From the NCBI GenBank assembly GCA_947653505.1, contig CANTHI010000078.1:1-10616 (forward strand): a stretch of DNA of 10,616 bases. The letters are read 5' to 3'. The position numbers were made by a program, and so were the translations under genes. Position 1 is the stretch's first letter. Every line of letters begins with the position of its first letter. Below are positions 2,703 through 10,616 of this stretch, in pieces. The notes under the pieces were generated by a model, which saw nothing but the letters and a program-made list of their open reading frames with translations, was not told the origin of the DNA and ran no database searches. Origin of the DNA: an uncultured Eubacterium sp. (GTDB lineage Bacteria; Bacillota_A; Clostridia; Lachnospirales; Lachnospiraceae).

Positions 2703-3677
2703 ATGTCAGACACAGATTTGTTGCAAAAATTGGAAAAGATGGCAAAAAATGGCGAAGACATCTTACAGAATTTTGAACTGATATTTTATAGTCAGGCAGG
2801 ATGGAAAAAAGACGAAGGGGCTGAAGATGACGTAATAGCATTATACCAGCCATACGTTTTGCCGGACAAAAAAGATATTACAGGGGTAAAAAGGGTAGTC
2901 TGTACATATTTTCATTTTCTGCTGGTGGTAAAAGTTGGGACAACATCAGATGATGATAACCATTATAAAATAAAATGTAAAACCAATACTTTGGGAAAAA
3001 TAATGGGATTAAAGCTGAATATTATGGTTCAATTAAGAAAAAATGTGAATCAGGTAACTGTATATTATAAGAACTACATAGATATAATCAAAACACTTAT
3101 CATAAGTTATTTGAAGAGAAGTACGTTTAAAAAGATGAAAGAACTTACTGATTCTGTAAAAAAGCTGGATAAAGATTCTATTATTGATCCGGATCAGGCT
3201 GACTTTGGACTGACAGCTATTATAAAGGAAGCATTTAATGATGTGAAAATCCTGTATCAGGAGTATGTAAAAAAATTGCTGACGTTTATCAGAATACTGT
3301 GGAGTTTTATATTTTGTTTAAATCCGTTACTTTTGGATATTATAATAGGATTATATCTGTCTGGTGCGTATTCACCATCGCTTTTAATTAAATGCAGACG
3401 GATATGGAACAGTTGTGTATATGAACTTGATGCAAGTTATGAATTAATATTAGTAGAGGAAAGACAAATCCAGGCAGAAACACTGGTAACTGCAAATACG
3501 TTATGTGAGGTACAAACGGAAACACATAAAAATGTAAATAAAGAACTTCTTTCTAAAAAAGTGGCAGAACATGTAGAAATAAAAAAACAGGTAAATGAAA
3601 ATAAAGTGTGCAGTTATGTGATGGAAAATGTAAATAAAAATTTGAAAAAAATCATATATTACAATTGCTGTCATTAA
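2703..3677 (+). CDS. Orphan AT-rich gene, hydrophobic central segment, function unknown
   Basis: I do not recognise this 324-residue protein. The start is well supported by AGGAGG at 2691-2696. The N-terminal third is mixed charged and beta-like. Residues 140-190 are lysine-rich and helical. Residues 192-219 are strongly hydrophobic and could be one membrane helix or hairpin. Residues 250-315 are charged and helical, possibly coiled coil. The gene is much richer in A+T than its neighbours, with many AAA, ATA and TTA codons, suggesting acquisition by transfer. The 3' end is odd: after a run of seven A's (3645-3651) the current frame stops within nine codons (IIYYNCCH then TAA). The -1 frame stays open to a TGA at 3740-3742 and encodes a plausible charged helical tail. 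The annotated C-terminus may therefore result from a frameshift, slippage or a sequence error. It has its own promoter and a downstream terminator, so it is probably monocistronic. Confidence 0.7.
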   Translation: MSDTDLLQKLEKMAKNGEDILQNFELIFYSQAGWKKDEGAEDDVIALYQPYVLPDKKDITGVKRVVCTYFHFLLVVKVGTTSDDDNHYKIKCKTNTLGKIMGLKLNIMVQLRKNVNQVTVYYKNYIDIIKTLIISYLKRSTFKKMKELTDSVKKLDKDSIIDPDQADFGLTAIIKEAFNDVKILYQEYVKKLLTFIRILWSFIFCLNPLLLDIIIGLYLSGAYSPSLLIKCRRIWNSCVYELDASYELILVEERQIQAETLVTANTLCEVQTETHKNVNKELLSKKVAEHVEIKKQVNENKVCSYVMENVNKNLKKIIYYNCCH

Positions 3678-3778
3678 ATAAGAAATCGAAACAAGCTATT
3701 CTAATAAAGGATGAGCTTACGGATAAGATAAAGCTGATGTGATTGTATGATAGCGAAAACACCTGCTAAAGATTTGGG

Positions 3779-3812
3779 AAAGGGGCTGTATCAGCAGCCC
3801 CTTTCTGTTTTT
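3779..3812 (+). terminator. Rho-independent terminator
   Basis: A perfect 10-base stem, AAAGGGGCTG (3779-3788) with CAGCCCCTTT (3795-3804), has a six-base loop and is followed by CTGTTTTT. The T-tract lies on the plus side, so it mainly ends the transcript of the orphan gene. On the minus strand the hairpin would be followed by CCCAAATC, a weak tail, so its use by the convergent ACT-protein gene is possible but less certain. Confidence 0.85.
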
Positions 3813-3824
3813 GTCCTGATTCTT

Positions 3825-4256
3825 TTATAAATTTGAAAGCGCTTCCTGGCAGATGGTATGAATGCCGTTTTTGTTTAAAACCTCAATTGCCTTTTCATTG
3901 TTTTCTACCCGCAGTACCATATAAGCGGTTGCTTTTTTGCGGGTCAGAAAGGCGTACATATATTCCAGATTGACGCCGCCGTCGCCGAGCATTTTTAAAA
4001 TTTTAAACAGGCTTCCCGGCTCATCCGGCATCTCGACGGCAAGCACCGGTGTAATCGAAGCGACATATCCGGCTTCTTTTAAAATACAGGACGTCTTGTA
4101 AGCATCATCTACGATAATGCGCACAATGCCAAAATCCTGGGCTTCCGCGATGGATAACGCACGCATGTCAATCTGGGACTGCTGTAAATATTCGGTCAGT
4201 TCAGCCAGCTTCCCGGGTTTGTTTTCCACAAATATGGAAATCTGTTTTACTGTCAT
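3825..4256 (-). CDS. Tandem ACT-domain protein, partner of the downstream-type PaaK ligase
   Basis: This 143-residue protein consists of two ACT domains, roughly 1-70 and 71-143. Each opens with a beta strand followed by a Pro-Gly turn and helix (VENKPGKLAELTEYL near 10-24; MPDEPGSLFKILKML near 76-90). There is no catalytic domain. ACT domains usually bind amino acids or related small molecules allosterically. Small stand-alone ACT proteins commonly lie beside phenylacetate-CoA ligases in clostridia and other anaerobes, as here. The strong ribosome binding site AGGAGG (complement of 4263-4268) fixes the ATG at 4256. The gene begins 56 bases after the ligase stop with no obvious terminator between, so both are likely in one transcript. 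A role in sensing an aromatic amino acid or its keto-acid product is inference from the partner gene. Confidence 0.9.
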   Translation of the reverse strand: MTVKQISIFVENKPGKLAELTEYLQQSQIDMRALSIAEAQDFGIVRIIVDDAYKTSCILKEAGYVASITPVLAVEMPDEPGSLFKILKMLGDGGVNLEYMYAFLTRKKATAYMVLRVENNEKAIEVLNKNGIHTICQEALSNL

Positions 4257-6644: not shown

Positions 6645-6673
6645 TTTACACGTACAGCTATATTCGCTATAAT
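6645..6673 (+). promoter_or_regulatory. Strong promoter for the kinase operon
   Basis: TTTACA (6645-6650) and a perfect TATAAT (6668-6673) are separated by exactly 17 bases. Transcription would start near 6680, leaving a leader of about 130 bases before the kinase ATG, which is long enough for RNA-level control. Confidence 0.82.
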
Positions 6674-6810: not shown

Positions 6811-8634
6811 ATGGGACATCAGATATACGAAAGTATCCGGAATGAGCCGCACCAGCTTGCTGCCGGAACGGTTCTAAACGGCAGGTATCTGATCGGGCGT
6901 TCGATTGGTCAGGGCGGATTTGGCATTACTTATGCGGGAATGGATATGAAGGACTCTGAACGGATTGCGGTAAAAGAATTTTTTCCATCCGGTATTGTCA
7001 TGCGTGATCCGGATGCAGTGGTCAGGCCCCTGCGGACTGAAGACAGCCGCTGGTTTGAGAAATACAGGGAGCGTTTTCTTCATGAATACCAGATACTGGC
7101 AGAATTATCCGGTATGCAGCAGATCGTCAGAGTCAGTGATTTCTTTTTTGCATATGGCACAGCATATATTGTTATGGAATATATCGAAGGGATAACATTA
7201 AAACAGTATGTGGAAGAACGCGGCGGCAGGCTGTCTGGTGATGAGACTTTCCGGATACTGGAACCAGTCATGCATTCTCTTGCGGGAATACATGAAGCCG
7301 GTTTAATTCACAGGGATGTCAGTCCGGATAATCTGATGATCCTTTCTGATGGAAGTGCAAAGCTTTTGGATTTTGGCGCGGTTCTGGATATTGGAGTTGC
7401 CGCAGGAGCGGATCTGCCATTGTCAAAATCTGTGACGGCAGTTATTAAAAACGGATATGCGCCTTTGGAACAATATCAGAGTCATGGCAGTCTCGGGCCG
7501 TGGACCGATGTATATGCTTTGTGCGCTACCATCTGTTACTGTCTGATTGGAAAAGCGCCGCCGGAAGCGTTGGAGCGGCTGCTGCAGGATATGCCGGTAC
7601 GGCTCCGGAAAGAGGGAGCGGATATCTCTGCCGATGGGGAAGAGGTTATCAAAAAAGGTATGGAACTGCGCGCCAGTGACAGGTTTGCGGATATGAACCA
7701 GCTTCTGGAAGCATTGTCCGGAGTGAAAGCGCTGTCCGGACATACAGCGGCAGATAGCGGAAAACCACCGGTATATAAAAAGGCCGGAGCCGGGCATACC
7801 AAAGCGGTGAAAATAAAGTGGATGTCTCTGGTTCCTGTTATACTGGCAGTTTTTTTGCTTACCGGTCTGTTCTTTTTCCAATTCCAAAGCGGAGATGGCA
7901 GCAAAAAAACTGCGGTGAATAAAGCAATCGCCGCTCCGGTCTGTTTTCGGAACTATACTGAAGAGATGGACGGCTGGGAGGAAACAGGGACAGTAATTAT
8001 GGTGGGGTGCGGGGAGGTTGCCGCATTTTCAAAAGATTATACGTTCAGCTGCAGCCTGTATCTTCCAAAGACAGCCTGTGCGGCAGATGGGGATAAGATG
8101 ATTGTTCATTGGTGGCTGGACATGGAAGATGAAAAAACGGGCCATATCGGAACGACGGACAGCCAGTATGTGTTCAGCCTGCTCCGGACACAGGATGAGG
8201 TTTTTCCGGTTGTTATGGCAGATGATCACACGGGAGACATCCTTGTGGATCAATCAGATTACAGCCGCTTCTTTCAGGTGAAAGAAGCGGGTGATTTTTA
8301 CAGACTGGACGTAACAGAACTTCCTTATTGTGAGTTACTGCATAATGAAGATGGAACAGACAGAAAGATTGTCATTGATACAGGACGGTCAGGGCAGATT
8401 GGGACCGGACTTATGGTAACGGGACTGAATCAGTCAGTTTCATCACAGATCTATCTGGATGATATCGTAATCAGGGATAAAGGGACGATTATAAAATCCT
8501 TTGATTGTTCTGCTGAAAGCCTGTATGGGCATTTTTACTGCTATGAATATGACGATGCCAGTGGCCAGCGGATTCAGGTGGATGTACCGCAGCTGTCCCC
8601 AATACCGGTTTCCAACACCAGTCCGGCAGACTGA
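6811..8634 (+). CDS. Transmembrane Ser/Thr protein kinase with a novel-looking extracytoplasmic domain
   Basis: This 607-residue protein is a predicted single-pass membrane kinase. The kinase domain spans about 25-305: glycine loop GQGGFGITY (33-41), ATP-anchoring K55 in IAVKEF, helix-C E92, catalytic HRDVSPDN (167-174, D169 and N174), DFG (187-189) and GYAPLEQY (215-222) in the activation segment. All catalytic residues are present; the common HRDLKPxN lysine is Ser, as in a known bacterial subgroup. A basic linker precedes one transmembrane helix (about 337-357). Residues 371-607 should face outside. There are no PASTA repeats, unlike the classic PrkC/PknB of Firmicutes. The ectodomain instead resembles the secreted protein encoded two genes downstream (FSKDYTFS, FPVV, KEAGDFYRL, IYLDD) and contains six cysteines. 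AAGGA seven bases before 6811 supports the start. It heads a likely three-gene operon under a strong promoter. The ligand and substrates are unknown. Confidence 0.93.
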   Translation: MGHQIYESIRNEPHQLAAGTVLNGRYLIGRSIGQGGFGITYAGMDMKDSERIAVKEFFPSGIVMRDPDAVVRPLRTEDSRWFEKYRERFLHEYQILAELSGMQQIVRVSDFFFAYGTAYIVMEYIEGITLKQYVEERGGRLSGDETFRILEPVMHSLAGIHEAGLIHRDVSPDNLMILSDGSAKLLDFGAVLDIGVAAGADLPLSKSVTAVIKNGYAPLEQYQSHGSLGPWTDVYALCATICYCLIGKAPPEALERLLQDMPVRLRKEGADISADGEEVIKKGMELRASDRFADMNQLLEALSGVKALSGHTAADSGKPPVYKKAGAGHTKAVKIKWMSLVPVILAVFLLTGLFFFQFQSGDGSKKTAVNKAIAAPVCFRNYTEEMDGWEETGTVIMVGCGEVAAFSKDYTFSCSLYLPKTACAADGDKMIVHWWLDMEDEKTGHIGTTDSQYVFSLLRTQDEVFPVVMADDHTGDILVDQSDYSRFFQVKEAGDFYRLDVTELPYCELLHNEDGTDRKIVIDTGRSGQIGTGLMVTGLNQSVSSQIYLDDIVIRDKGTIIKSFDCSAESLYGHFYCYEYDDASGQRIQVDVPQLSPIPVSNTSPAD

Positions 8635-8664
8635 CGTGAAGAACAGGAAGGGGAAGAATAGAAA

Positions 8665-9774
8665 ATGACAACACATACAAAAGAGATGATTTCGTCCGGA
8701 CATGCAACAGAAGCTCTGAGCAGAACCTCTGCCAGACATCTGGATATCGTGATTCAGGAAAACCTGACCGCAAAGGAAGCTGTGGAATTTATGAAAAGCG
8801 GTATGCAGCTCCGGACATTTACAGATAACCTCACGGCATTCTATAAAGGTGAGGATCTGGAACAAAAGCTGCTGGAAGGTCTGTGCCGTTATCGTGCAAT
8901 GTCCAGACAGAGCATCCGCCGCAAGGTGTATAACTGGCTGCACAATAAAAATCTGCCGCAGGACAGAGAGGAGATGTTTTGCATCTGTTTTATTCTGGAG
9001 CTGGATGAGACGGCATCGGATCATCTGCTTAAGCGTCTGACCGGACAAGGGATACATTACAGGGATGTCAGGGAGCTGGTGTATGCTTACTGTCTAAAGC
9101 GCCAGATTTTGTATGAGCAGGCTAAGCAGATGGCAGATACGCTGGTTTGCCCGGCTCCGGTAAAGGAAAGCGGGCGCCAGCCGCTGACGGATGTGTATAA
9201 AAGCAGGTTTCATATGCTGCAAAGTCAGGAGGAGCTGCTGCAGTTTCTGCTGGAAAATAAAAGCTGTTTTGGCGAATATCATAATACGGCTTATTCTTAT
9301 TTTATGCAGATGCTGGACCTTCTGACGGATGCCGGGGAAGAGGTTTATTCTTTAGAAACGGTCGCAGATACATATCTGAGGATGAATATGCCGTTAAATA
9401 AGCGGACTTCCGGGTTTGGAACGATTCAAAAGCTCGTAAAGAAACACTGGCCTGGCAGCCGCAGTATCAAAGCAATGAAAAACCGGACACAGGATGTTTC
9501 ACGCAAGGCGCTGCTTTTGCTATATATTGTAACAGGCGGCGTACATGAGGATGATTATGAAGAACTGGACGAAGACTATGTAATGCCGGACGAATTTCTG
9601 GAACAGCACTGCAGAAGCATAAACCGGATGCTGACAGAAAGCGGCATGGCACGTATCGACCCGCGCAATGCCTTCGATTTTCTTATATTATATGCCATAC
9701 GGCCGCAGGAGGAAGGACTTATGAGTGAGAAAATGGCGGAGATTGTACGGCAGCTGTATCAGGATTTTGAATGA
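8665..9774 (+). CDS. Soluble protein with XRE-like helix-turn-helix region, kinase-operon partner
   Basis: This 369-residue protein has no signal peptide or transmembrane helix, so it should be cytoplasmic. Residues about 48-125 read like a diverged helix-turn-helix of the XRE/lambda-repressor type: MSRQSIRRKVYNWLHNKN (79-96) would be the recognition helix with its WL-x-x-K/N ending, followed by LPQDREEMFCICFILELDETASDHLLKRL (97-125). Residues 130-158 continue the helical bundle. The remainder is helical, with an acidic patch EDDYEELDEDY near 292-302, and is not recognised. AGGGGAAG (about 8649-8656) precedes the ATG, which lies 30 bases after the kinase stop, so the two are almost certainly co-transcribed. 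A DNA-binding output protein, possibly phosphorylated by the kinase, is the natural reading; the phosphorylation part is inference. An alternative is a structural adaptor that keeps the fold but does not bind DNA. Confidence 0.8.
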   Translation: MTTHTKEMISSGHATEALSRTSARHLDIVIQENLTAKEAVEFMKSGMQLRTFTDNLTAFYKGEDLEQKLLEGLCRYRAMSRQSIRRKVYNWLHNKNLPQDREEMFCICFILELDETASDHLLKRLTGQGIHYRDVRELVYAYCLKRQILYEQAKQMADTLVCPAPVKESGRQPLTDVYKSRFHMLQSQEELLQFLLENKSCFGEYHNTAYSYFMQMLDLLTDAGEEVYSLETVADTYLRMNMPLNKRTSGFGTIQKLVKKHWPGSRSIKAMKNRTQDVSRKALLLLYIVTGGVHEDDYEELDEDYVMPDEFLEQHCRSINRMLTESGMARIDPRNAFDFLILYAIRPQEEGLMSEKMAEIVRQLYQDFE

Positions 9775-9813
9775 GAAAAAAGTTGCCCGATGTTTTCAGC
9801 TGCTCTGATAGAA

Positions 9814-9843
9814 TAGAAAACAGATTTCTAATTCCATTTTCTA
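9814..9843 (+). repeat. Small AT-rich inverted repeat before the secreted-protein gene
   Basis: TAGAAAA (9814-9820) and TTTTCTA (9837-9843) are perfect complements with a 16-base loop, in the 93-base gap between the helix-turn-helix gene and the secreted-protein gene. An extended -10-like TGATAGAAT (9806-9814) overlaps its left arm but lacks a good -35. It could be a weak internal promoter or an mRNA processing or stability structure. It is not a terminator, because no T-run follows. Confidence 0.35.
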
Positions 9844-9867
9844 CTATAAGAGCAAGGAGGACGATAT

Positions 9868-10616
9868 ATGAAAAAATCATTGAAAAAAATAGTAGCTGCT
9901 ACTCTCACAATTCCGCTGGCTTTTTGCATGGTATGCATTGGTCCATCCGGGACCAGCAGCGTACAGGCTGCAGATAACAAAGCGTTTGCCGCGCCGGTCA
10001 GGTTTCCGGGAGCCCGGCCGGAAGACGACTGGGATAGCGCTGGTACAAGACTGGGGATTGATCTTGGGGAAGTCGGTGCGTTTTCAGATAAGTATACATT
10101 CAGCTATAGTATTTTGATTCCAAAAGCTGCGCTCGAAGGACAAAAGGAGCACGCACAGGTTCAGGTAAATACATGGTTTGATTTTAGTCAGGGAGAGACG
10201 TACCTGGGCAATGTACAGTCCGGATATTCCTTTCTGATCGTTCATGACAATGGTTCTATCTTTCCGGTTGTCGTGGATGAACAAAAGGGGCAGGAACTGA
10301 AAGCCCCGGAATATAAGGATTTTTTTGCCATGCGCGAAGCCGGGGATTTCTATAAGCTGACAGTCACGGATGCGCCTGTAAACTCTATGCTGAATATAGA
10401 AGGAGATGAGCAGAACCAGACAGCTATTGATACCTCCCAGTCTGGCAGCATCTTTATGCAGACAAGAATTACCGGGATGTTTAATAAACTGACTTCTGTC
10501 GTATATCTGGATGATCTTTCTTTAAAAGCGGACGGAACCGTTGTATTCGAAACAGATTTTTCAGCTTTGATGCCTTTTACTACTCCTTTTGATGTAACTG
10601 TCGCAACTTTTTTGTT
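9868..10616 (+). CDS. Secreted protein, paralogue of the kinase ectodomain (3' end beyond window)
   Basis: The frame is open from ATG 9868 to the window end (249 codons plus two bases), so the gene is partial. An ideal AAGGAGG (9854-9860) fixes the start. Residues 1-34 are a signal peptide: basic MKKSLKKI, a hydrophobic stretch 9-25, and cleavage after VQA (34) or nearby. There is no lipobox, so the protein should be released or retained by a later domain. Residues 37-233 align along their length with the kinase ectodomain: NKAFAAPVRF (37-46), GEVGAFSDKYTFS (67-79), FPVV (132-135), FFAMREAGDFYKL (152-164), IDTSQSG (187-193), YLDDLSLKADGT (213-224). The fold is probably beta-rich, perhaps a jelly-roll binding module; this is inference. 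The sequence goes on past the shared domain (PFTTPFDV), so further domains may follow. Its position in the kinase operon suggests a shared ligand or direct interaction with the receptor. No enzyme motif is seen. Confidence 0.88.
   Translation, partial: MKKSLKKIVAATLTIPLAFCMVCIGPSGTSSVQAADNKAFAAPVRFPGARPEDDWDSAGTRLGIDLGEVGAFSDKYTFSYSILIPKAALEGQKEHAQVQVNTWFDFSQGETYLGNVQSGYSFLIVHDNGSIFPVVVDEQKGQELKAPEYKDFFAMREAGDFYKLTVTDAPVNSMLNIEGDEQNQTAIDTSQSGSIFMQTRITGMFNKLTSVVYLDDLSLKADGTVVFETDFSALMPFTTPFDVTVATFL

Follow-up and report, generated by a model that had tools for sequence, protein, structure and literature searches.

The 10,616-nucleotide stretch analysed here, called the window throughout (contig CANTHI010000078.1 of an uncultured, gut-type Eubacterium sp. 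of the Lachnospiraceae), ends in three co-directional genes that fill its right third and encode a transmembrane Hanks-type serine/threonine (Ser/Thr) kinase, a middle protein resembling helix-turn-helix (HTH) proteins and the start of a secreted protein, with gaps of 30 bases between the kinase and middle genes and 93 bases between the middle and secreted genes (Table 1). Our comparisons indicate that the kinase probably captured its outer domain (ectodomain) from the family of the secreted operon partner, so that this is probably a receptor Ser/Thr kinase module in which the origin of the sensor is unusual.

An earlier reading made from the letters alone (the sequence-only reading) had proposed that the ectodomain and residues 37-233 of the secreted protein are homologous and collinear, and this is borne out: with kinase residues 366-607 as query and the secreted open reading frame (ORF) as subject, BLASTP gave 76 identities over 205 amino acids (37%, E 7e-41), and the local alignment score of the two is 326, compared with a maximum of 61 among 500 shuffles. 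The alignment starts at the NKA-AAPV junction, where the homology was said to begin in both proteins, and runs to kinase residue 568 and secreted residue 233; with intact relatives aligned, the similarity seems to extend about 20 residues more. The GEV-AFS--YTFS block has the 11 matches in 15 positions that had been claimed for it, and the EAGDFY block has 12 in 22, not 13 (counted by eye on the alignment). Structure predictions gave both domains a mostly-beta fold with closely similar strand order (mean predicted local distance difference test, pLDDT, of 93.4 for the secreted domain and 90.8 for the kinase ectodomain); the two are thus predicted to be the same mostly-beta sandwich, and not the unrelated folds that had been named in advance as an argument against their kinship. 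Among the nearest solved folds to the predicted sandwich are the carbohydrate-binding modules (CBM) CBM27 and CBM28; for the secreted domain, Foldseek returned nothing from the PDB at E 0.001 or better. No sequence relation to these modules was detected: with an E limit of 10 and HMMER's filters in place, CBM models matched 0 of 20 domain rows. The domain profile found no convincing match among PDB sequences.

In a search space of 5.8 billion proteins, the secreted protein as query recovered five relatives (P0001-P0005), the ectodomain as query recovered five kinases (P0006-P0010), and a 12-row profile of the secreted family recovered 85 proteins, of which 76 carry Big_2 according to precomputed domains and only four carry a source name (Lachnospiraceae, Agathobacter or Firmicutes). 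Domain-bearing kinases were seen only in the window and in P0006-P0010. We generated a tree of 35 rows, a hand-made choice among the 90 P proteins and the rows of the loci. The six kinase ectodomains group together in it with support 100/100; their clade is nested in a larger one of 18 rows (99/99), all of whose other members are secreted proteins, and the remaining secreted rows fall outside the larger clade. With the root placed anywhere outside the 18-row clade, the domain moved once, from secreted protein to kinase, and because the ectodomain clade is nested inside the secreted family, it is probably the kinase that gained its sensor from its partner's family. The secreted row nearest to the kinases is P0012, a sister placement (97/93) that is less sure than the 18-row nesting because the L035 branch is very long (1.99) and the kinase stem is long too (0.74). 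The domain duplication supposed at the outset is therefore upheld by alignment and tree together.

The kinase is of Hanks type by its Pkinase match over the cut-off and by the glycine loop, lysine, HRD and DFG, all of which are present; a motif search of its kinase domain did not find the exact APE motif. It resembles the PASTA kinases PknB and StkP in joining a Hanks-type kinase to an outer sensor domain through one transmembrane helix (PMC12077195, in the part available to us), and differs from them in having no PASTA repeats among its Pfam matches up to E 0.1 and, as outer domain, a beta sandwich common to the secreted neighbour; against the NCBIfam PknB_PASTA model it scores 130.2 of 450 bits, under the cut-off. 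There is also a likeness to the RsgI anti-sigma factors of Clostridium thermocellum, membrane sensors whose outer CBMs bind extracellular polysaccharides and which signal to transcription (PMC4711584, in the portion accessible). RsgI signals through a sigma factor and not through a kinase, whereas the Pfam scan of the window kinase showed a kinase domain and no RsgI anti-sigma domain.

The helix-turn-helix gene that the sequence-only reading placed between the kinase and secreted genes stood up on one comparison and failed on another. When the window's middle protein and seven relatives were combined into a profile, it matched the one built from the HTH proteins, 142 aa long, that related kinase loci encode (probability 94.7, E 5.6e-8, 88 columns), the single member scanned from that group matching Pfam HTH_31 at 31 bits with a cut-off of 27, whereas the lone middle protein, compared as a single sequence, reached a probability of 1.5. 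Neither this protein nor eight relatives match a Pfam HTH family; up to E 0.1 the protein matches nothing in Pfam or NCBIfam, bar one model for which it is far under the cut-off, and its profile has no convincing match among PDB sequences. It is thus through the profile comparison that an HTH-like nature is suggested. Relatives of the middle protein occur in 9 of 150 genomes of the family of G004, a Lachnospiraceae metagenome-assembled genome that holds locus L015 and whose phenylacetate-CoA ligase is 84% identical to that of the window, and a kinase related to the window kinase adjoins the relative in all nine loci (about 1.2 kb off in L074). These loci (L066-L074), from Lachnospiraceae-type genomes, show the middle-protein family in a wider HTH-kinase pairing, in which the length of the Ser/Thr kinase varies and a secreted gene is for the most part lacking. 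The tblastn search with the middle protein found no relative in the loci first collected and no match on plasmids, and distant blastn of the operon found none in phages.

Over all genome draws, the secreted family is represented by 12 copies in 10 genomes, the match in G319 being weak (E 2.3e-5, a short frame of 148 aa). Of the 12 copies, 7 have a kinase that exceeds the Pfam cut-off no more than 10 kb away, with 0.40 expected (p 2e-8). The statistic assumes random placement and rounded genome sizes, and five of the ten genomes belong to a single genus; when G156 alone stands for this genus (G459, G461, G462 and G465 dropped), the count is 3 of 6, with 0.21 expected (p 6e-4). A genome survey had been named in advance as a possible refutation, and this one supports kinase linkage of the secreted family elsewhere. 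An eighth copy, in G153, adjoins a contig-cut frame with a transmembrane stretch and leucine-rich repeats, the start of which resembles a kinase end by eye. All three gene types are found together in five loci (G080, G082, G156, G461 and G462) in differing gene orders, and in G082 they are about 5 kb apart with the secreted gene on the other strand. None of the seven neighbouring kinases matches the window ectodomain better than E 0.4, and the outer parts of the five that were scanned contain leucine-rich repeats in four cases and no recognised outer domain in one. As related kinases lack the domain, the association of HTH, kinase and secreted genes looks older, and the ectodomain copy looks like a later capture. 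Four Lachnospiraceae-type loci (L037, L038, L049 and L052) resemble the window in that each encodes an HTH protein, a Ser/Thr kinase and a secreted relative, but they have leucine-rich repeats in place of the copied domain, an HTH protein of 142 aa instead of 369 and another gene order.

The combination of an ectodomain kinase, an HTH-like gene and a secreted gene is directly seen only in the window; P0008 (an ectodomain kinase) and P0056 (a secreted protein), on contigs of the same source that are each 4423 long, may be a second case. When genome contigs were scanned with the kinase alignment, 28 loci came up in which the match is confined to the kinase part, and a scan with the ectodomain alignment gave 31 pattern matches, none confirmed, which is weak evidence of absence because its two patterns are strict. 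Among the matches listed from titles and abstract beginnings of open-licence PMC papers (in one case the best 12 of 377), a search that cannot prove absence, we found no Ser/Thr kinase with this outer domain and no description of the gene triad or of the loci with leucine-rich-repeat kinases, which agrees with the initial impression that the module is not a recognised system; the main text of a 2005 survey of kinase architectures (PMC1262709), as far as it was available, contains 0 occurrences of "carbohydrate". The proposal that the three genes form a complete signalling module holds as regards the linkage of the three gene types elsewhere, but that linkage is not centred on the ectodomain, and the secreted gene is cut in the window.

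The secreted ORF runs open from 9868 to the window end and its C-terminus is missing; the intact relatives P0001-P0005 end in a Big_2 domain. The last 63 bases of the window (10554-10616) match antisense residues 300-320 of P0001 with 90% identity, and this match overlaps by 13 bases the sense match ending at 10566. We take the contig end to be an artefact, a fold-back chimera in which this inverted P0001-like piece follows the gene cut at about residue 233. The family is rare: it was found in 5 of 397 genomes in the family of G004 and 0 of 64 in its genus, in 2 of 145 relatives of G080 (both already among the genomes found earlier), in 2 of 392 genomes across the order (one being the centre genome) and in 1 of 391 across the class (the centre itself). 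At the genus level it is present in 5 of 10 genomes for G156, and in 1 of 1 for both G080 and G153, these being the centre genomes themselves. In locus L050 (4251-6125) a 624-aa protein, adjoining GH5 cellulases, has an alpha/beta hydrolase fused to the secreted domain and Big_2.

The reading that we prefer, and to which we give about even chances, is a surface-sensing module formed by the Hanks-type kinase, its HTH-like partner and the secreted beta-sandwich/Big_2 protein, the ectodomain having been captured in the window lineage. The secreted protein and the ectodomain would share one class of ligand outside the cell, most probably a polysaccharide. Its binding to the ectodomain would alter kinase activity, the kinase would phosphorylate the HTH-like protein, and the latter would bind DNA and adjust how the operon itself and target genes are transcribed; Big_2 would retain the secreted protein at the surface. 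What the comparisons show of this is the homology, the common predicted fold, the gene linkage, the intact kinase motifs and a single origin of the kinase version inside the secreted family. Against the sequence-only reading stands that no kinase was found near 4 of the 12 secreted copies (G319, G459:C83, G465 and G778); among these, G459:C83 has an HTH gene and the G465 contig is only 4.3 kb.

It is possible, though we regard it as doubtful, that the captured-domain receptor and its soluble paralogue compete for, or jointly present, one ligand, with Ser/Thr phosphorylation acting on the HTH-like regulator; the idea that such a pair would match, in a prokaryote, a receptor accompanied by its soluble decoy or co-receptor is tentative to the same degree. 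The adjacent genes and common domain could also mean that the secreted protein is the kinase's protein partner (co-receptor, ligand or antagonist), with the shared fold serving like-with-like contact and not glycan binding, which we consider unlikely. Four outer cysteines (window kinase residues 400, 414, 423 and 566) are kept in 6/6 kinase ectodomains, whereas of the 29 secreted rows P0012 retains two of them and L055 one, so the two domain copies have specialised, which favours this reading; but with 0/7 related-locus kinases carrying the domain, like-with-like contact cannot be the original role of the module. We also think it quite unlikely that the secreted protein is output only, a surface- or fibre-binding protein under HTH-kinase control with no part in sensing. 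HTH-kinase pairs do exist without the secreted gene (among those genomes a secreted relative was reported for G153 only), the four copies without a near kinase point the same way, as does the hydrolase fusion of L050, but the uptake of the same domain by the window-lineage kinase is then left unexplained.

It is very unlikely that the kinase is a cell-envelope sensor reading the cell's own wall or capsule as PASTA kinases do: it is a Hanks-type transmembrane kinase, and StkP uses its PASTA ectodomain to bind peptidoglycan fragments (PMC12077195, same part), but the Pfam scan shows no PASTA domain, the family is rare (5 of 397), unlike a housekeeping wall sensor, and each of the ten genomes with the secreted family also has other kinases. 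An anti-phage kinase system with accessory genes is hardly to be credited. In its favour, 34 PADLOC models match the kinase (best PD-T4-6 at 145.6 bits; PADLOC gives no cut-off), but they do so within the kinase domain, the middle and secreted proteins match no PADLOC model at E 0.01, and MAD6 is far under its NCBIfam cut-off (131 of 460 bits).

Table 1. Features of the receptor kinase operon and its surroundings in the window.
Feature	Position	Strand	Remarks
Promoter-like site	6645..6673	+	5' of kinase gene; 11/12 consensus bases
Transmembrane Hanks-type Ser/Thr kinase, 607 aa	6811..8634	+	Pkinase 93.9 bits, cut-off 31.7
Kinase domain, residues 28-252	6892..7566	+	GQGGFG, AVK, HRD, DFG
Predicted transmembrane helix, about residues 338-356	7822..7878	+	hydropathy maximum 2.5 over 19 residues
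Kinase ectodomain, residues 370 to about 596, homologous to secreted protein	7918..8598	+	
HTH-like middle protein, 369 aa, family adjoining Ser/Thr kinases	8665..9774	+	
Stretch (about residues 72-160) with homology to HTH proteins from related kinase loci	8878..9144	+	
Signal peptide, judged by eye (hydrophobic stretch after a charged start; cleavage at VQA-AD)	9868..9969	+	hydropathy maximum 2.08 from residue 8
Beta-sandwich domain of secreted protein, residues 37-233; gene cut at this point	9976..10566	+	
Inverted piece, Big_2 part of secreted gene family	10554..10616	-	contig-end chimera, no gene

The promoter-like site is suggestive only, because 8 such sites were found with 6.3 expected in shuffles. 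Inside the ectodomain coding sequence (8265-8290) there is a terminator-like perfect inverted repeat of 11 pairs followed by a T-rich run. Elsewhere in the window, two adjoining radical SAM genes occupy 325-2606, the second HemN-like yet under all NCBIfam cut-offs, and a 324-aa ORF without Pfam match (2703-3677) lies in a low-GC stretch (GC 0.33 at 3001-4000) that is possibly acquired DNA.

Outside the PASTA group, we know of no ligand for the majority of bacterial receptor Ser/Thr kinases. A soluble twin of the sensor domain, which can be purified and screened, offers a handle on what the sensor detects, and the dedicated partner gene may be the output of the kinase. The loci suggest a route by which receptor kinases acquire specificity: a domain is taken over from a secreted family whose genes already accompany HTH-kinase pairs, and in sister modules leucine-rich repeats form the outer part of the kinase. 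Should the ligand be a glycan, Ser/Thr kinases would be a further means by which gut bacteria sense polysaccharides.

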